A stretch of 64,000 nt of DNA from Desulfosporosinus sp. Sb-LF. Its GTDB lineage: Bacteria; Bacillota; Desulfitobacteriia; Desulfitobacteriales; Desulfitobacteriaceae. Of the stretch, positions 3,497-12,919 are shown piece after piece. A program made the translations under genes and the position numbers. The notes under the pieces are model-generated. The model worked only from the letters and a program-made list of their open reading frames with translations. It ran no database searches and was not told where the DNA came from. The number at the start of each line of letters is the position of its first letter. The first letter of the stretch is position 1. The stretch is from the NCBI RefSeq assembly GCF_004766055.1, contig NZ_SPQR01000003.1:62001-126000 (forward strand), given 5' to 3'.

Positions 3497-5191
3497 TTAA
3501 TCACTATCTTCTAAGACAACCCCATAGTCCTGCCTGGCCTTGGACGGAGATATAATACCATTTATTACATCTTGCCGTACCCTCTCTGGATCTCGCTGCA
3601 AGGGGTCTCCCCACCCCCCCCCACCTGAAGTAATCACAGTGAGTACCGTTCCCTTTGGCAACGAACGATCACTTTCTTTACTTTCCATAGTGATCCGTTG
3701 TCCATCTTCCATTGTCAATTCGGCAAAATTCAGACTGCCCGATTTCCCTGAAACAGAGCCAAAGGGTGGAATTTTCATCCCGTCACCGAACATGACAATA
3801 TTGGTTGGTTCACCATAAAATTTCAGACTATACCGAATACCTGGTCCCCCACGCCACATCCCTGACCCAGCACTATCCATTTCCATCTCGTGACATAACG
3901 TTAAATGAGGATACTGGATTTCATTGGCTTCAATATTAGGGGCACGTACTCCTCCATAGTTAGATAGGGGTGCCATATAGGCGTAACCATCCCGCCCAGC
4001 AATTCCTCCGCCAGAACCCAGAGCACAAAAGGCGAAGCCGACGTAAAATTCCTGGTTACGAGGGTCAATGCCATAAAAAGACGGGCCACAGTAACGTCCA
4101 AAACCTGCGGGTAATCGGTCCCCAGCGACCGTGTCCAAGGCTTGAAAAATGGCGCTAATGATTTCACTTGCTGGAGTCAACGTACTTAACGTGACCGGCG
4201 CAGGATCATGTGGATTAACCAAACTCCCTTTAGGCATATTTACCTTAATCGCCCGGAAAGCCCCGCTATTACGAGGAATATCTGGTCCCAAGGCCCAAAG
4301 GGCACCAATCCAAGCTGCAGTCGTACTAGTAACCAGAGCAGTATTTACAAAGCCTTTGACCTGAGAATCAGTCCCGTCAAAGTCAAGAGTCATTTCCTCT
4401 GCACGAACTTTAACCGTAACCTTAATTTTGATTGGATTCGTTTGGAAACCATCATCATCGACCCATTCTTCCCCAATGTAATCTCCATTTGGCAAACCTT
4501 TGATGGCTAATCGAGTGAGTTTTTCAGCATGATCTAGAAGATACCCCACCGTTTCCTTGATTCGTGCTGGGGAGTAATTGTTAAGCAATTCTTTTAAACG
4601 AACACTCCCAATATTGTTGGCTCCCATTTGCGCCCACAAATCATTTTGCAGCATTTGCGGATTTCTGACATTGCGAGTGATCAGGTCCATAACCTCGTTG
4701 ATAACCCGCCCCTGACTCACAAGTTTAATCGGGGGAATACGTAAACCTTCCTGGAAAATCTCGGTCGCCTTAGCATTATAACTACCGGCAACAGACCCAC
4801 CAATATCTCCGTGATGAGCCCTGCTAACACAGTAGAATAGAACCTCTCCATCCACGACCAGTGGGGTGATTATGCCGATATCCGGAAGATGATTCCCCCC
4901 TTGATATGGATCATTTATGATAAAAACGTCGCCCTCTTCGACCTGTCCAGGATATTTCTTAATAATTTCCTTAACGCTAAATGTTCCTGCAGCTGCTAAG
5001 ATAGGAATGCCATTGATCTGAGAGACTAAATCTCCATCTCCGTTACAGATCCCACAGGCGAAATCGCAGGCCTCGGCAAAAATAGGGGATCTGGACGATC
5101 GTTCTAAAGCATAGCCCATTTCCTTGGTAATCGTATCCAAACGATTGGCAATAACTGCCTGCTCGATAACCTCATCCATTTTGGCATTCAT
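3497..5191 (-). CDS. hyuB: Hydantoinase B / oxoprolinase-type subunit (HyuB)
   Basis: 564-residue member of the hydantoinase B/acetone carboxylase alpha-subunit family. Recognisable blocks are ALERSSRSPIFAEACDFACGI near residue 30, FIINDPYQGGNHLPDIGII near 88, SRAHHGDIGGSVAGSYN near 122, and the C-terminal SGGGGWGDPLQRDPE typical of the family. It acts with HyuA in ATP-dependent opening of a cyclic imide/amide (5-oxoproline, N-methylhydantoin) or in ATP-dependent carboxylation. The sequence does not decide which. The start lies two bases after the hyuA stop, so the pair is translationally coupled. An alternative start 12 bases inward is possible because the GGATGG Shine-Dalgarno is distant. 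Confidence 0.87.
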   Translation of the reverse strand: MNAKMDEVIEQAVIANRLDTITKEMGYALERSSRSPIFAEACDFACGICNGDGDLVSQINGIPILAAAGTFSVKEIIKKYPGQVEEGDVFIINDPYQGGNHLPDIGIITPLVVDGEVLFYCVSRAHHGDIGGSVAGSYNAKATEIFQEGLRIPPIKLVSQGRVINEVMDLITRNVRNPQMLQNDLWAQMGANNIGSVRLKELLNNYSPARIKETVGYLLDHAEKLTRLAIKGLPNGDYIGEEWVDDDGFQTNPIKIKVTVKVRAEEMTLDFDGTDSQVKGFVNTALVTSTTAAWIGALWALGPDIPRNSGAFRAIKVNMPKGSLVNPHDPAPVTLSTLTPASEIISAIFQALDTVAGDRLPAGFGRYCGPSFYGIDPRNQEFYVGFAFCALGSGGGIAGRDGYAYMAPLSNYGGVRAPNIEANEIQYPHLTLCHEMEMDSAGSGMWRGGPGIRYSLKFYGEPTNIVMFGDGMKIPPFGSVSGKSGSLNFAELTMEDGQRITMESKESDRSLPKGTVLTVITSGGGGWGDPLQRDPERVRQDVINGIISPSKARQDYGVVLEDSD

Positions 5192-5193
5192 CG

Positions 5194-7359
5194 TTATCGT
5201 CCATCCTTTCCTATTCTAATCCTTAAGTTGCCCGCCAGATCTAGTTCAGCCTGACAGTTCTCTTCTACTAAGATGGTCACAAAGTCCTTTCTAATTAACG
5301 CTGGGCCTCTTAACTTCATTCCTGTATATAAGTCTCGCCCCTGATAAACTTCTATCTGCTGAAAAGATCCATGCCAATAGACCGATTGTAACTTATTAGT
5401 TTCAGGTATCTCTTTACTACCATTATCACCTTTACCCCTTGTGCCCCGTAATTCCCCTGTGTTCCCTATATCCCATTTCGCTCTTTTGTTGTCCAGTGCT
5501 CGTCTTGTTTTCTCCAGGTACGAGCGTGTTTTGATCCTTTCTTGAAAGAAATCTTCCTTTTCCTTAGCTAACAGTCGCAGGTTCACAAGTTCTAAGAGCT
5601 TCTCCGGCTGGCTATAACCGTAAAGTCTACGATGGTTATTGTGAAAATTCTGAGCTAACTGTTGCCAAACTGATGGATCATTCGTACCACAAGGCAGGGC
5701 TGTGTTAATTTCATGATGCTGATCAGGGTACTTTAAATCTGCAGACCAAACGTACTCACTCTGATCGATACTTACGCCGAGGCGAGACAACTCTTGATCC
5801 GCTTGCCGTTGAAGTTCCATTACGATTTGATTCCAACTTGGGCCTGGCGTCTCACCTAACACTATAAAGAGACTGCGCAAGACTTCAATCTGAAAACAAG
5901 CGTGGTGCAGTCCTTGGGCACAGAAAACGGACGCTAGCTCAGGAACTACAACTTCCTGAATCCCTACCCCCGCTGCCAAAGCTGTCGCAAACAACGGCAG
6001 TGCACCACCGACAGCGGCCAAGGCGAATAAACGGGGATCATAGCCTTTCTTGACGGTCATAAGGTAAACGGCATCCACCATCAAGGAGAGCGCCACCTGA
6101 TAAATGGCATAGGCTGCTTCAGGGACGGATAAACCTAATGGTTGAGCAATCTTCGTTTCAATAGCCTTATAGGCTAATTTCTCATCTAAAGCCATGCGTC
6201 CACCTAAAAAACCCGAACTGTCTAATAGACCCATGATCAAAGCCGCATCAGTGATGGTGGGTTCTTGACCCCCTAAACCATAACAAGCAGGCCCAGGCTT
6301 CGCACCGGCAGAATGTGGTCCAACCCGCAACATTCCTCCCTTATCCAACCAAGCAATACTTCCCCCACCTGCCCCAACTGTATGAATATCTAACATCGGC
6401 AATTGGACAGGGTATCCGGCGATCTCGGCCTGATGGTTCACTTCCATCGTTCCTTGCCTAATTAGGGAAACATCAAAGCTTGTCCCCCCCATATCTGCCA
6501 CGACCAATTCGGGCAAATCCTGTTCATGAGCCAAGGCCCATCCCCCTTTGACCCCTCCAGCCGGACCGGAAAACAAACTGTGCACAGCACGCTGACTTGC
6601 TTGCCTTAAATCCGTTAAACCGCCATTATTCTGGGCGATGGATATTGGCACTTGAAGACCGTTATTACGCATGTGAGACCTCAAATCCAGTAGATAATTA
6701 CTTAACACAGGACTTAAGCGTGCATTTAGAACTGTTGTGGTAGTTCGTTCATATTCCCCAAGTTGGGAAGAAAGTTCAGACGAAAGCGTGATAAATACGT
6801 TGGGCAAAAGACCTTGCAATTGATCTTTAAACCCTTCTTCATGCTCCGGATTACGACAGGCAAAGAGCAAACATACCGCAACGGATTCTACCTCTTGTTG
6901 CCGCAAGAAATCGGCAATCTCCTTTATTTGGGCGTGATCCACGGATTTGATAGACATACCCTTATAATCCATACGTTCCCGAAGCCCTATGCGCAAATAC
7001 CGCGGTACTAAAACGGGGGGTAAAGCAACACGAAAATCCCATTGTTCAGCCAAACGTGAACGTCTTAATTCCAATGAATCGCGAAAGCCCTCGGTCGTGA
7101 TCAAAGCTGTTTTTGCACCTTGACCCTGCAGCAAGGCATTGATACCTACAGTCGTCCCATGAATAAACTTGTCGGTTTGCCCAAGGAATTCTGAGAGTGA
7201 TAAGCCGAAACCCTGCGCCAAATCAGTTAGGCCTCGCAAAATCGATTCCAGAGGGTTTTCTAGGCCAGAAGGAACCTTGGTGGTAAAGGAACATCCATGC
7301 TGATCCCGAACCACAAAGTCCGCGAACGTACCCCCTACATCAACTGCAATTTTGTACAT
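5194..7359 (-). CDS. hyuA: Hydantoinase A / oxoprolinase-type ATPase subunit (HyuA)
   Basis: 721-residue subunit with an ASKHA-type nucleotide-binding fold. The N-terminal phosphate-1 loop reads IAVDVGGTFADFVV, followed by GTTVGINALLQGQGAKTALITTEGF near residue 93 and a second ATP motif VADMGGTSFDVSLI near 290. The DIHTVGAGGGSIAW and GPHSAGAKPGPACYG blocks define hydantoinase/oxoprolinase A. It provides ATP hydrolysis for HyuB. A low-complexity polar insert near residues 620-660 breaks the conserved C-terminal domain. The ATG at 7359 is preferred over the ATG at 7368 because GGGAG sits nine bases before it but abuts the earlier codon. Confidence 0.87.
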   Translation of the reverse strand: MYKIAVDVGGTFADFVVRDQHGCSFTTKVPSGLENPLESILRGLTDLAQGFGLSLSEFLGQTDKFIHGTTVGINALLQGQGAKTALITTEGFRDSLELRRSRLAEQWDFRVALPPVLVPRYLRIGLRERMDYKGMSIKSVDHAQIKEIADFLRQQEVESVAVCLLFACRNPEHEEGFKDQLQGLLPNVFITLSSELSSQLGEYERTTTTVLNARLSPVLSNYLLDLRSHMRNNGLQVPISIAQNNGGLTDLRQASQRAVHSLFSGPAGGVKGGWALAHEQDLPELVVADMGGTSFDVSLIRQGTMEVNHQAEIAGYPVQLPMLDIHTVGAGGGSIAWLDKGGMLRVGPHSAGAKPGPACYGLGGQEPTITDAALIMGLLDSSGFLGGRMALDEKLAYKAIETKIAQPLGLSVPEAAYAIYQVALSLMVDAVYLMTVKKGYDPRLFALAAVGGALPLFATALAAGVGIQEVVVPELASVFCAQGLHHACFQIEVLRSLFIVLGETPGPSWNQIVMELQRQADQELSRLGVSIDQSEYVWSADLKYPDQHHEINTALPCGTNDPSVWQQLAQNFHNNHRRLYGYSQPEKLLELVNLRLLAKEKEDFFQERIKTRSYLEKTRRALDNKRAKWDIGNTGELRGTRGKGDNGSKEIPETNKLQSVYWHGSFQQIEVYQGRDLYTGMKLRGPALIRKDFVTILVEENCQAELDLAGNLRIRIGKDGR

Positions 7360-7451
7360 TTCTTCCATCTCCCTGTTAGCTAAAAATAAGTAAAATAAGC
7401 TTTAAAACCACCTTGATTCTTTTAGACCCTTCTCTCTAGTCATAATGAAGA

Positions 7452-7515: not shown

Positions 7516-8889
7516 TTATAGGCCGAAGGACTCCATAAAACGCTGTACCTTATGCTGAACCTCAGATGACATCTCCACTGTGGGCGCAAAACCTGAAAGG
7601 GGTTTCGTCGCATCAATACCCATTTTGGCAGTTCGACTTAATTCATCACTCGAAGGATCTAAAGTACAGCCCATACCCATATGCTGCGGTATGATCGTCA
7701 CTCCTCTATCCGCTTGAAGTCTAGTGGCCATGGCCCAAAGCACCTGGCGTTCATCGAAAACGTCCACATCTTCATCGACTACAACGACCATCTTCAGATT
7801 ATGATCCACCGAGAAGGCCGTAAAGATGGCTTGCTGGGCCTGTCCCTCAGCAATCTTCTTCATGGAAATGTAACAGTGGAACAATCCACAAGCCGAAATG
7901 GGAGCATGAACACTTTTAATATTAGGCAGAGTCCTTTTCAGCGCATTCAGGACATCCCCTTCTCGCTGTACAGCGACAATCGTAATATGCTCTGAACTCA
8001 TGGCTGGTGTAATATCCTGAAAGAGCGGTTTCGTGCGGTACTGAATTGCCTTAACCTTGAACAAATTTTCCGTGCTGCGATAACAGGCATAATTTGTGAA
8101 TTCTGCAAAAGGGCCTTCAGCTTCTCGTTCTCCTGCGACGATTTCCCCCTCGATGATAACCTCAGCATAAGCAGGAACCGTCAGATCGACCATCTTGCAG
8201 CGAGCGACCTTCAGCGGAGACCCAAATAATCCCCCCATCGCTGCAAATTTACCTTGATCATAAGGGATCAAGGCCATTGACCCCATCGAAATATTAGGGT
8301 GGATACCGAGTACAATCGTCGCTTCGAGCGATTTACCCATTTCTTCCGAGCGGCGGAAGTACTCCCATAAACGTTGCCTAGAATGGAGGCTAATCCCTAA
8401 TTTGTCCCTACCCTTTAACTGCATCCGGTGATAACCTGCTGTATCAGCACCCGTCACTGGATCTTTAGCAATGACCAAGCCTGCTGTAATGTAGGGTCCA
8501 GCATCAATTGGGAAGTGAGTCAAAATTGGCAATTTATACAAATCAACCTCTGGGCCTATAACAACATTCTCCCGAAACGGAGCATCAGCTATCTCGACAG
8601 GCTCGATCCGCTGATTGATTCGCTTGGAAAACTCAGCGGCAAGATCGTTGGGATGAACACCCATAGCCAATGCCAAACGCTCGCGAGGAGCCAAAACATT
8701 AGTGACAACGGAGATATCATGCCCTTTAACGTTATCAAAAATCGTCAGCGGATAGCGCCGCACTTTCTCTAATTCCATAATCAAGGTACTAATTTCATAC
8801 TTTGGGTCAATCTCCTCATGAATATGGACAACCTCTAAGGGGTTTTGCTGCTTAACTCGTTCGATAAATGATCTCAGATCCTGCTCCAA
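7516..8889 (-). CDS. UbiD-family prenyl-FMN decarboxylase
   Basis: 457-residue member of the UbiD (de)carboxylase family, which uses prenylated FMN to reversibly decarboxylate aromatic or alpha,beta-unsaturated acids. Family features seen are the N-terminal RSFIERVKQQNPLEVVHIHE, TAGYHRMQLKGRDKLGISLH with the Arg of the cofactor site near residue 155-170, VAGEREAEGPFAEFTNYACY near 250-270 with the conserved Glu residues of the ERxxEGPFxE block, and DEDVDVFDERQVLWAMATR near 373. Translation starts at a TTG with GGAGGCGTAGAAG just before it. No ubiX-type prenyltransferase gene is in the window. Position suggests co-expression with hyuAB. Substrate unknown. Confidence 0.88.
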   Translation of the reverse strand: MEQDLRSFIERVKQQNPLEVVHIHEEIDPKYEISTLIMELEKVRRYPLTIFDNVKGHDISVVTNVLAPRERLALAMGVHPNDLAAEFSKRINQRIEPVEIADAPFRENVVIGPEVDLYKLPILTHFPIDAGPYITAGLVIAKDPVTGADTAGYHRMQLKGRDKLGISLHSRQRLWEYFRRSEEMGKSLEATIVLGIHPNISMGSMALIPYDQGKFAAMGGLFGSPLKVARCKMVDLTVPAYAEVIIEGEIVAGEREAEGPFAEFTNYACYRSTENLFKVKAIQYRTKPLFQDITPAMSSEHITIVAVQREGDVLNALKRTLPNIKSVHAPISACGLFHCYISMKKIAEGQAQQAIFTAFSVDHNLKMVVVVDEDVDVFDERQVLWAMATRLQADRGVTIIPQHMGMGCTLDPSSDELSRTAKMGIDATKPLSGFAPTVEMSSEVQHKVQRFMESFGL

Positions 8890-9242: not shown

Positions 9243-9283
9243 ACCATCGCCCATTATTAGCCTTATCAAAAAAGGCTAAGTTC

Positions 9284-9450
9284 AATATTACAGGCAGGTC
9301 TTCTGGCTCAAAGTTCATCATCGCCGTACGCCTTCCCAGCAAATGCCAGTGGCCAGTGTACAGGACTCCCTCTTCACAGTGGTGGGTCCGCTCAGGATTA
9401 ATATACTACCTGATTCCCTATTCTCCCCAATTGGGGCACCTGTAATAATT
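9284..9450 (-). promoter_or_regulatory. Cobalamin (B12) riboswitch
   Basis: On the minus strand the element opens with TTATTACAGGTGCC, contains GGGAATCAGGT, GCGGACCCACCACTGTGAAGAGGGAG, then CCACTGGCATTTGCTGGGAAGGCG, and closes with the B12 box AGCCAGAAGACCTGCC followed by TGTAATA. The ends pair as P1 (TTATTACAGG with CCTGTAATA). Order and spacing match the cobalamin riboswitch class. It faces the 73-residue ORF, the UbiD-family gene and hyuAB, not a recognisable cobalamin biosynthesis or transport gene. Confidence 0.93.
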
Positions 9451-9583
9451 CCTTATTACCAATCCACCATGAATTAAGAGTGGATTATGTGTTTTTTATA
9501 TGTTTCGACGCCATTATTAAATTCCCTGCTTCTAATCATGAACTAGGGTAAATTCTTTTTCGATGAGTTTCGTTGATAGACAG

Positions 9584-9732: not shown

Positions 9733-10710
9733 TCAGTTTATTCCTAGCCCAAATGAATTACGCAAAATATCAGGACGCAAGGATCCGGCATGAAACGAGT
9801 TACCACTCTTTAAATTACATAACCACACTTCCGCAGGGCTAAACAGACGTGGGTCGATATCGTAAAAATCCCCACATTCCTTATACACCTCCGCAAAAGG
9901 TCGACCATATTCCCGAGAAGACGATGACGGAACCAGCTTCACCAGAGAATCGAGAGCTTTATCATCATCATGAAGGTAATAAAGTACTGTCGAACCATAA
10001 AGAAGCGCATCGTTTGTCCGCCCAAGGGCACTTAGATTATCACCCGCTACTGGTGATAACGGACAAATACCCGAACCGGATACTATGTTCTCTATATTAT
10101 AGCCCAGTTCCATGAGTTTAGATAAGCCAGTTTCCAAGGCTCGTGCCGCTATCTGAACTGAACCCACCTGTGACGCAGTAGGGGCTACCATGATATAGAG
10201 ATTTGTGGGATCGCATTGACACTCCTCTAAAATATACCGAACCACCTCTTCTGAAGGAAGTTCCTCACTTTCCAAACAAATGATCGCTGTCTCCGAATAA
10301 TCCTCATAGCCTGAAACTTCAAATACTTCACCCTCATGAACAATAGCACGTCCCGGACCAGAACCCATTGCTAATAACTTGCCATTTTTAATAGGCCATC
10401 CGGCATATTGGGACGCCAGACAAGCTCGGATCGGATGATCAGAGACTACTTCAACTGCGGGCCAGTGCAACCCATTAAAGTCTGACCAATGTTGTTGAAC
10501 CTGGGCTAGCCCTCCGAGGCAAACAGACGCGAACAAGGTCCCTGCTTCCCAGCCACCCTGAACATGAACACCGCAATCGATCACTGTTACCCCATTTTGT
10601 TTGTGAACCTTGACCCGAAGCAGTTCGCTCCGGGAGAGGAATTTCTGAACCAACGGGAAAGCCTGACGGTTAGGACTTAATTCATGGGTTTGGCTAAGCG
10701 GCAAAAGCAT
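9733..10710 (-). CDS. mch: Methenyl-tetrahydromethanopterin cyclohydrolase
   Basis: 325-residue protein matching the Mch family along its whole length. Mch hydrolyses N5,N10-methenyl-tetrahydromethanopterin to the N5-formyl form in methanogens and in some methylotrophs. Family blocks: VTVIDCGVHVQGGWEAG near 37, SVCLGGLAQVQ, WPAVEVVSDHPIRACLA near 82, AMGSGPGRAI near 114, ICLESEELPSEEVV near 142, VAPTASQVGSVQIAARALETG near 175, LSALGRTNDALLYGSTV near 228 and IDPRLFSPAEV near 286. The ATG at 10710 is preceded by GGAGAAGGG with suitable spacing; an in-frame TTG at 10728 overlaps that site. No fae, mtd, ftr/fhc or methanopterin-biosynthesis gene is in the window, so the physiological substrate is open. 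Family assignment is firm. Confidence 0.92.
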   Translation of the reverse strand: MLLPLSQTHELSPNRQAFPLVQKFLSRSELLRVKVHKQNGVTVIDCGVHVQGGWEAGTLFASVCLGGLAQVQQHWSDFNGLHWPAVEVVSDHPIRACLASQYAGWPIKNGKLLAMGSGPGRAIVHEGEVFEVSGYEDYSETAIICLESEELPSEEVVRYILEECQCDPTNLYIMVAPTASQVGSVQIAARALETGLSKLMELGYNIENIVSGSGICPLSPVAGDNLSALGRTNDALLYGSTVLYYLHDDDKALDSLVKLVPSSSSREYGRPFAEVYKECGDFYDIDPRLFSPAEVWLCNLKSGNSFHAGSLRPDILRNSFGLGIN

Positions 10711-10742
10711 AGTGTTTCCCTTCTCCAAGTGAAATTATTGTT

Positions 10743-11030
10743 CTACAATCTCTCGTACTCACCCTTAGCATTAAGATATTGAATATCCCTGCAACCATAA
10801 TATTCTCCATACATATCTAACGGATCAAAGCCCCTTGGTCTAGTACAGTCATCCGAGTAGCCGATATAGTAGACTTCCAGGTCCTGGTCTCTCATACGGA
10901 ATATATACTGTGGTTCAGCTTCAAACTTTTTGATTAGTTGTTCAAATTCCTCAGTACCTTTTTTAGCGTCCGAAGAGAAATACTCGATCATGGATTTTTT
11001 TTCGATGCAATCCTCAGTAATCTTAAACAT
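10743..11030 (-). CDS. Hypothetical 95-residue acidic protein
   Basis: Small soluble protein with many Glu/Asp, Lys and aromatic residues (EEFEQLIKKFEAEPQYIFRM, DLEVYYIGYSDD, DMYGEYYGCRDIQYL). No membrane segment, signal peptide or motif I can name. The ATG at 11030 follows AAGGCGG at good distance. It lies 32 bp upstream of mch on the same strand, so it is likely co-transcribed. It is the only gene that could share a promoter with mch. Codon use looks like its neighbours, which supports a real gene. Confidence 0.6.
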   Translation of the reverse strand: MFKITEDCIEKKSMIEYFSSDAKKGTEEFEQLIKKFEAEPQYIFRMRDQDLEVYYIGYSDDCTRPRGFDPLDMYGEYYGCRDIQYLNAKGEYERL

Positions 11031-11305: not shown

Positions 11306-12919
11306 ATGTACGATATTGCAATAATTAATGGTTTAGTCATAGATGGAACCGGTAACTCGCCAATTCAAAGTGACGTTGGTATTAAGAACGGGACAATAGT
11401 TGAGGTGGCTAAAACTCTGTCAGCAAAGGCTACCTTGATTATCGACGCCAGACACAAAATGGTGACACCGGGGTTTATTGATGTGCATAGCCATAGTGAC
11501 TTGGTGCCCTTTATGTCAGGTTCAATTCGTGAAAGTAAGATAAGACAAGGGGTTACAACTGAAGTAGTTGGGCAATGTGGTTTAGGATCAGCACCGTTCA
11601 TAGATACAATGCAAGACTGGCGTAATTACTTAACCCCCATCTTAGGAACTGGGCCTCAAACTTGGGATTGGCCCAAGTTTGAGACGTTTATGCATGATTT
11701 GAGCCAAGCAAAAAAGCCTAATAACTTAGCGGTATTACTTGGTCATGGCGCAATAAGGGCACAAATTTTAGGGTTGGAAAATGTCGCGCCTTCAACATCG
11801 GATCTTTCGGCTATGTGCAGGATTGTCGATGAGGGGATGTCACATGGCGCTCTCGGAATTTCCTACGGTTTGGCTTACTTACCAGGAATGTTTGCGACTC
11901 AACAAGAACTTATTGCCTTAAGCTCAGTCGTGGCGGCTCATAAGGGCTTCATGATGATTCATATTCGCAGCCACTCTCTCCAAATTCGTGAGAGCATGAT
12001 CGAAGCCTTAACCGTAGCCAAAGTATCCGGGGTTAAGTTGCAAATTTCTCATATGCGTTCCTATGCTAATCGGGATTATGGTATATCTGGTCAAGCCTTA
12101 CTAGAATTAGTGGAACAAGCTAGGGCTGATGGCGTAGACGTCACGTTTGATGAGCACCCGTATCGAGCAGGTAGTACCCTATTATCTCAAATCCTTCCTC
12201 CATGGGCAAAGGAAGGTGGTAGTCCTGAAATAGTACGCAGACTAAAGGACCCCCAATTGCGGGCTAGGCTAAAGGAAGAATTGAATAATCCAGGACTCGA
12301 TTATCCGGGTTGGGATAACTTTGTTGGAATGGTTGGCTGGTCCAACATCATGATAAGCTCAGTGTTTAGCCAACAAAATAAATGGACAGAGGGTCAAACA
12401 GCAGCACAGTTAGTCACGAAAATAGGCTTAGAAAAAACGGAACTGGTTCATGAAATTATAGATCAGATCGCTGAACTCTTAATTAGTGAAGATAGCCGAG
12501 GTTCTATGGTGATGCAGAATCTATTTGCCGAAGAAGATATTATTGAGTTGCTTAAACACCCCTTATGTCAAATAGGTTCAGATGGAATCCCTACGGGCAA
12601 ACCTCATCCCCGTTTATATGGTACCTTCCCTAAGTTTTTGGGGGAATATGTCCGCGATAAAAAAATTATGACTTGGGCAGAAGGGGTTAAGAGAATAACT
12701 GGAGACCCAGCCCTTAGGTTGAACTTAGCGAATAAGGGATTTGTCAAAACGGGCTATAGTGCCGACCTGGTAGTCTTTGACCCTGAAAATATTAATGCCC
12801 CCGAAGATTATAACAATCCCTCTGCGTCTCCCATAGGGATAAATTACACAGTAGTCAATGGTCACGTCTCCATGGCAAATGGCGAGATTTTATGTACTTC
12901 AGCCGGAAAACTGATCTAA
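11306..12919 (+). CDS. N-acyl-D-amino-acid deacylase-like amidohydrolase (D-aminoacylase family)
   Basis: 537-residue metal-dependent amidohydrolase. It starts with the family opening YDIAIINGLVIDGTG. The metal-binding PGFIDVHSHSDL block is at residues 56-67, a conserved Cys lies in EVVGQCGLGSAPF near 97, an LGHGAIR block near 148, KLQISHMRSY near 246, the SDGIPTGKPHPRLYGTFPKFLGEYV block near 428, and a C-terminal ADLVVFDPENI. These match D-aminoacylase/N-acyl-D-glutamate deacylase, which release D-amino acids from N-acyl forms. It could complement the hydantoinase genes by hydrolysing N-carbamoyl or N-acyl products, which is inference. ATG with AAAGGG ten bases before. Confidence 0.85.
   Translation: MYDIAIINGLVIDGTGNSPIQSDVGIKNGTIVEVAKTLSAKATLIIDARHKMVTPGFIDVHSHSDLVPFMSGSIRESKIRQGVTTEVVGQCGLGSAPFIDTMQDWRNYLTPILGTGPQTWDWPKFETFMHDLSQAKKPNNLAVLLGHGAIRAQILGLENVAPSTSDLSAMCRIVDEGMSHGALGISYGLAYLPGMFATQQELIALSSVVAAHKGFMMIHIRSHSLQIRESMIEALTVAKVSGVKLQISHMRSYANRDYGISGQALLELVEQARADGVDVTFDEHPYRAGSTLLSQILPPWAKEGGSPEIVRRLKDPQLRARLKEELNNPGLDYPGWDNFVGMVGWSNIMISSVFSQQNKWTEGQTAAQLVTKIGLEKTELVHEIIDQIAELLISEDSRGSMVMQNLFAEEDIIELLKHPLCQIGSDGIPTGKPHPRLYGTFPKFLGEYVRDKKIMTWAEGVKRITGDPALRLNLANKGFVKTGYSADLVVFDPENINAPEDYNNPSASPIGINYTVVNGHVSMANGEILCTSAGKLI

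Follow-up and report, generated by a model that had tools for sequence, protein, structure and literature searches.

The mch gene and its surroundings

The window analysed here, a stretch of 64,000 nucleotides from Desulfosporosinus sp. Sb-LF, a sulfate reducer that forms spores, contains an intact open reading frame for a protein of the methenyl-tetrahydropterin cyclohydrolase (Mch) family, together with the features listed in Table 1. The protein matches PF02289 at 1.4e-121 (residues 20-326 on positions 3-311 of the 311-position profile) with a score of 406 bits against a cut-off of 25, and scores 381 bits against the TIGR03120 equivalog, whose cut-off is 228.8. The closest solved structures, PDB 1qlm (M. 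kandleri, 1.2e-94) and 4gvq (A. fulgidus, 7e-81), match it over its whole length. Arg196 and Glu199, numbered on the 331-residue frame that opens at TTG and not on the 325-residue ATG form, align with Arg183 and Glu186 of the A. fulgidus enzyme, for which a 2012 structural study reported catalytic roles. The original prediction of a full-length Mch with every family block is thus borne out, and the poor profile scores that it named as grounds for withdrawing the assignment are replaced by scores far above the curated cut-offs.

Table 1. Features at and around the lone mch gene, with positions in the window.
Feature	Position	Strand	Remarks
HyuB-like protein	3497..5191	-	nearest caprolactamase beta, below cut-off; neighbour
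HyuA-like protein (hydantoinase/oxoprolinase A)	5194..7368	-	nearest caprolactamase alpha, below cut-off; neighbour
UbiD-family decarboxylase	7516..8889	-	neighbour, not a conserved partner
Cobalamin riboswitch	9276..9458	-	106.7 bits; between mch and UbiD
Lone mch, methenyl-tetrahydropterin cyclohydrolase family	9733..10710	-	325 aa from ATG 10710; profiles, structures, catalytic Arg/Glu
mch upstream region	10711..10870	-	160 nt; ribosome-binding site GGAGAAGGG
Amidohydrolase	11306..12919	+	PF07969; PRK09061-like, below cut-off; divergent from mch

The longest reading frame opens at the TTG at 10728. The ATG at 10710, which was the start originally proposed, is preferred because the orthologues open at the same MLLPL and because GGAGAAGGG stands before this ATG. 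The GC content of mch (0.470) resembles that of its neighbours UbiD (0.470) and HyuA (0.469); given this and the 391 kb contig, contamination by foreign DNA is an unlikely source of the gene. The context had been read as Firmicute-like, rightly so, the named relatives being Desulfosporosinus.

In the window, the lone mch adjoins UbiD-HyuAB. Copies in other genomes follow a response regulator and an HD-GYP gene, follow ilvBN, precede PiT/DUF47, diverge from a BMP-ABC operon (the three related copies of G008, G009 and G026), or lie beside unrelated genes, and HyuAB/UbiD are also present in the same region at a distance from Mch. Genes for agmatine deiminase and a carbon-nitrogen hydrolase often lie within 10 kb of the lone mch; since the intervening genes vary, this points to a shared chromosomal region and not to an operon. 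Hence, the comparison of neighbours across relatives yields no conserved partner set of the hydantoinase or amidohydrolase type, and the link to these adjacent genes that was first suggested is not supported: as the neighbours are not conserved, a functional tie to HyuAB, UbiD or the amidohydrolase is rejected on grounds of synteny.

The cobalamin riboswitch heads UbiD-HyuA-HyuB, an unusual gene set for B12 control, and is followed by a terminator-like hairpin (9242-9211) upstream of these three genes. As it lies downstream of mch, control of mch by this riboswitch is ruled out. At two of the response-regulator/HD-GYP loci, c-di-AMP riboswitches lie directly downstream of mch (L044, 10059-10204; L051, 8598-8745). 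Many lone-mch orthologues (L032, L030, L036, L039, L044, L043, L051) are preceded, at a distance of about 50 nt, by a motif, GGGTATGCTGAAAA, and its exact form GGGTATGCTRAAAA has four matches in eight genomes, all of them upstream of mch. The motif is not recognisable in the 160 nt upstream of the window's mch, where the best agreement is 9/14, no better than in shuffled sequences. Expression in the forespore through GGGTATGCTGAAAA is not supported: among promoters of genes for small acid-soluble spore proteins in four genomes, several have CATAATA-type elements and GGGTATGCTGAAAA is nowhere well matched, in a comparison where the start codons of some spore genes were assigned automatically, wrongly so in some rows.

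The window Mch is an orphan

The genome (G000; 4.27 Mb, 30 contigs, 99.99% complete, genus Desulfosporosinus) encodes only one Mch. Family searches across the whole genome returned no Ftr (PF01913), no MfnB (PF04476), no Fae (PF08714) and no RFAP synthase match above the cut-off of TIGR00144. The orphan call is defined on these four marker families. The other congeners that have a lone Mch and no operon for tetrahydromethanopterin (H4MPT) likewise have no Ftr, MfnB or Fae, and no RFAP synthase above cut-off. The same searches succeed in operon-bearing congeners, detecting Ftr and MfnB in G019, G020, G021 and G028, RFAP synthase in G019, G020 and G021 (none was seen in the fragmented G028 assembly) and Fae in G021 only, which makes the absence in G000 informative.

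The original prediction saw no H4MPT genes near mch, and for the four marker families this now extends to the whole genome; the option of a pathway scattered over the genome is not supported. Of what is expected around an H4MPT-dependent cyclohydrolase, neither synthesis of the cofactor in the same organism (RFAP synthase) nor the partners Ftr and methylofuran synthesis were found. The window Mch is therefore a true orphan. To our knowledge, H4MPT is the only known Mch cofactor, and this strain is apparently unable to make it.

Distribution, descent and probable transfer of the lone gene

For the purposes of this study, lone Mch denotes copies in Bacillota that have no adjoining H4MPT genes. 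Intact lone copies are present in 22 of 29 Desulfosporosinus genomes, G000 counted, and 19 of these 22 have no Ftr. Four congeners (G019, G020, G021, G028) possess an operon for H4MPT and methylofuran that includes an Mch of its own, where mch stands among fhcABCD, mfnB and other cofactor genes (the G028 operon is split over short contigs), and in three of them, G019, G021 and G028, operon and lone Mch occur together. The operon loci L022, L023, L026, L027 and L028 contain fhcABCD, mfnB, mch, RimK- and CitG-like genes and DUF6513, and D. lacus (G019) has two copies of the operon. Only remnants of lone mch are left in G020 and G001 (L055, L056): in the former pieces lie beside HyuA and beyond HD-GYP, and in the latter the C-terminal 43 codons persist beside the carbon-nitrogen hydrolase gene. 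No lone Mch was found in G002, G010, G013, G015 or G025, of which the G010 and G013 genomes are incomplete. Outside the genus, lone Mch is found in G034 and G044, both without Ftr, in two Oscillospiraceae-type MAGs, also without Ftr, and in Ca. Formimonas, whose genome has Ftr elsewhere. The lone Mch is thus not a one-off but common to most of the genus. Nothing relevant was found in the literature on Mch in Desulfosporosinus or Formimonas.

In the Mch phylogeny, the lone copies form one group in each of three IQ-TREE trees (support 95/79, 99/93 in the fuller tree, and 93/87), nested inside the operon-type Mch of Bacillota. Removal of the long-branched G034 row raises the support in two of the three trees, and in every bootstrap tree sampled a single change is enough to account for the lone label. 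The rows from Formimonas, G044 and the Oscillospiraceae sit deep within this mainly Desulfosporosinus clade, which indicates that the lone mch has probably passed horizontally as a single gene.

Selection and residue conservation

Pairwise dN/dS lies between 0.08 and 0.21 for the lone copies and between 0.06 and 0.18 for the operon copies, and the counterparts of the A. fulgidus catalytic pair are invariant in all lone copies, that of the window included. Given a single clade, the many genomic contexts, this range of dN/dS and the retained catalytic Arg and Glu, the lone Mch is a separate, mobile and selected subfamily.

The reference for residue changes was a set of 31 H4MPT-type rows, drawn from archaea and from several bacterial phyla, in which 31 positions never vary. 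Ten of these positions are changed somewhere among the 29 lone rows, versus none among ten rows of the sister operon Mch; an earlier version with 32 positions had 5-11 of them changed when ten lone rows were drawn at random. The lone clade thus tolerates changes that are absent from H4MPT-linked enzymes. The changes fall mostly within residues 268-298, which is consistent with altered tail binding in the lineages concerned. These changes are lineage-specific, and six lone copies, that of the window among them, show none. Position 203 is His in nearly all H4MPT-type rows (Phe or Tyr in the archaea of the crystal structures) and in no lone copy. Residues changed in lone Mch coincide with those changed in the single haloarchaeal Mch at two of three, which is not above chance (estimate ~0.24). 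Since the window protein retains all 31 invariant positions, it gives no sign of a changed substrate, and by its residues it looks able to bind an H4MPT-like pterin.

Possible functions of the lone Mch

We conclude that the lone mch is predicted to encode a working cyclohydrolase that is no longer in H4MPT service. That some change of substrate or cofactor has taken place is, in our judgement, slightly favoured. The particular reading that we tentatively put first, and hold with something short of even confidence, is that the lone Mch acts on methenyl-tetrahydrofolate (methenyl-H4F), uncoupled from the H4MPT pathway. The gene would have originated from an operon-type, H4MPT-linked Mch of Bacillota, would have come loose from that pathway, and would since have been held by selection and handed on by itself. 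Mch chemistry would be retained, with water added onto the N5,N10-methenyl carbon of a tetrahydropterin, Glu199 serving as base and Arg196 as helper, to give an N-formyl-tetrahydropterin in a reversible reaction. The pterin would be tetrahydrofolate, so that 5,10-methenyl-H4F and formyl-H4F are interconverted; the formyl product is probably of the methanogen Mch type, 5-formyl-H4F, and the role may be accessory to FchA and 5-formyl-H4F cycloligase (5-FCL).

This proposal starts from the movement of lone mch into hosts without signs of H4MPT, such as the Oscillospiraceae MAGs that have no Ftr, which argues for a substrate present in every host. Methenyl-H4F is the closest compound that such hosts already have, and there is a haloarchaeal precedent: for HVO_2573, whose organisms lack methanopterin, a role as methenyl-H4F cyclohydrolase has been predicted (PMC8305020). 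In Haloferax, our family search finds Mch and not Ftr. Against the proposal, G000 encodes 5-FCL and two copies of FchA, and both enzymes are also found in all congeners searched, beside which an extra folate cyclohydrolase looks redundant; the same distribution rules out that the lone Mch stands in for a missing folate enzyme. Two further points against folate are that no H4MPT-type invariant residue is changed in the window copy and that the Mch enzymes characterised so far are in general regarded as specific for H4MPT. Moreover, several congeners lack the gene or have it only in broken form, so that it is not essential. We know of no experimentally proven folate use by a haloarchaeal or lone Mch.

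The main rival to methenyl-H4F is that the lone Mch opens or closes another cyclic amidine, for example an intermediate of purine or pterin breakdown. The original prediction had proposed this in general form; we consider it rather unlikely. The Mch fold does get recruited, as a separate Bacillota clade in catabolic-looking clusters suggests, and the three related lone copies of G008, G009 and G026 are divergent to a BMP-ABC operon. However, the lone clade is unrelated to the catabolic clade and retains Glu153, where every catabolic row has Gln; the lone mch has no stable catabolic neighbours, and the full set of H4MPT-type invariants in the window copy speaks against a foreign ring as well.

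If the gene were left over from an H4MPT operon since lost, in slow decay or retained for some weak side activity, this would fit its loss from several congeners (remnants in G001 and G020, none in G002, G015 and others) and the disappearance of otherwise invariant residues from some lone copies. We judge this improbable, because the gene is intact in most of the genus with dN/dS of 0.08-0.21, its catalytic residues are invariant, and the clade, which occurs alongside operon Mch, has spread to other families by transfer. Least probable is that the strain uses H4MPT scavenged from its neighbours or made by non-homologous enzymes, with Mch in a reduced pathway: the window copy has all H4MPT-type invariants and the cofactor probably occurs in the genus, some congeners having the operon, but the marker families are wanting in G000 and the other operon-less lone-Mch congeners, Mch by itself links no other step, and lone mch was transferred into Oscillospiraceae without Ftr.

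Action on methenyl-H4F thus stays the favoured reading. More broadly, we lean, by a little, towards a change of cofactor or substrate in a bacterial branch of the Mch family that travels among Bacillota as a single gene, separately from the similar switch proposed for haloarchaea.

Comparison with known systems

Mch is commonly used as a marker of H4MPT-based C1 metabolism in methanogenesis and methylotrophy. Here, a whole clade has Mch without the pathway, so that single-gene calls from metagenomes would be wrong in this group. The coexistence of lone and operon Mch in three species offers a natural test of how an enzyme changes between H4MPT and H4F, the great C1 carriers.

The phylum survey also revealed a third Mch clade in Bacillota, a separate group (100/99) in which the catalytic Arg and Glu are kept and Glu153 is replaced by Gln. 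Its clusters contain BMP-ABC or ECF transporters, guanine-deaminase-like amidohydrolases, a FolB-like aldolase and a pterin-binding enzyme, as well as an FMN reductase, regulators, and AOR-like and Fe-ADH genes; the AOR, ECF and BMP calls come from reading the sequences and from resemblance to the BMP protein of the window. A single cluster contains up to four genes of the Mch family (L205). The clade looks like a system for pterin or purine uptake and breakdown, and deserves a study of its own.

The H4MPT-linked Mch (1QLM and 4GVQ; D. lacus L075, Moorella sulfitireducens L074) shares with the window Mch full-length homology, the catalytic Arg and Glu and 31/31 invariant positions; the window Mch differs in its genome, which has no H4MPT or methylofuran genes, in its stand-alone locus and in belonging to its own clade. 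The catabolic-cluster clade (L205-L211, L213, L215, L216, L218, L220, L228) has PF02289 and the catalytic pair in common with the window Mch, although identity is only ~25-39%, Gln takes the place of Glu153, and its genes stand in operons with transporters and amidohydrolases. FchA and FolD, the methenyl-H4F cyclohydrolases, belong to the same reaction class as that proposed for the lone Mch; the lone Mch is unrelated to them in sequence, with matches to PF02289 only, and FchA is encoded separately. The nearest parallel in circumstance is the haloarchaeal lone Mch (HVO_2573; Natronorubrum bangense L230), likewise a single gene in a stand-alone neighbourhood of an organism without methanopterin. 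Common descent of the two is not what the trees give: the one haloarchaeal row, on a long branch, groups with the archaea, whereas the lone clade groups with the operon Mch of Bacillota, which suggests that the haloarchaeal and Bacillota lone Mch arose independently.
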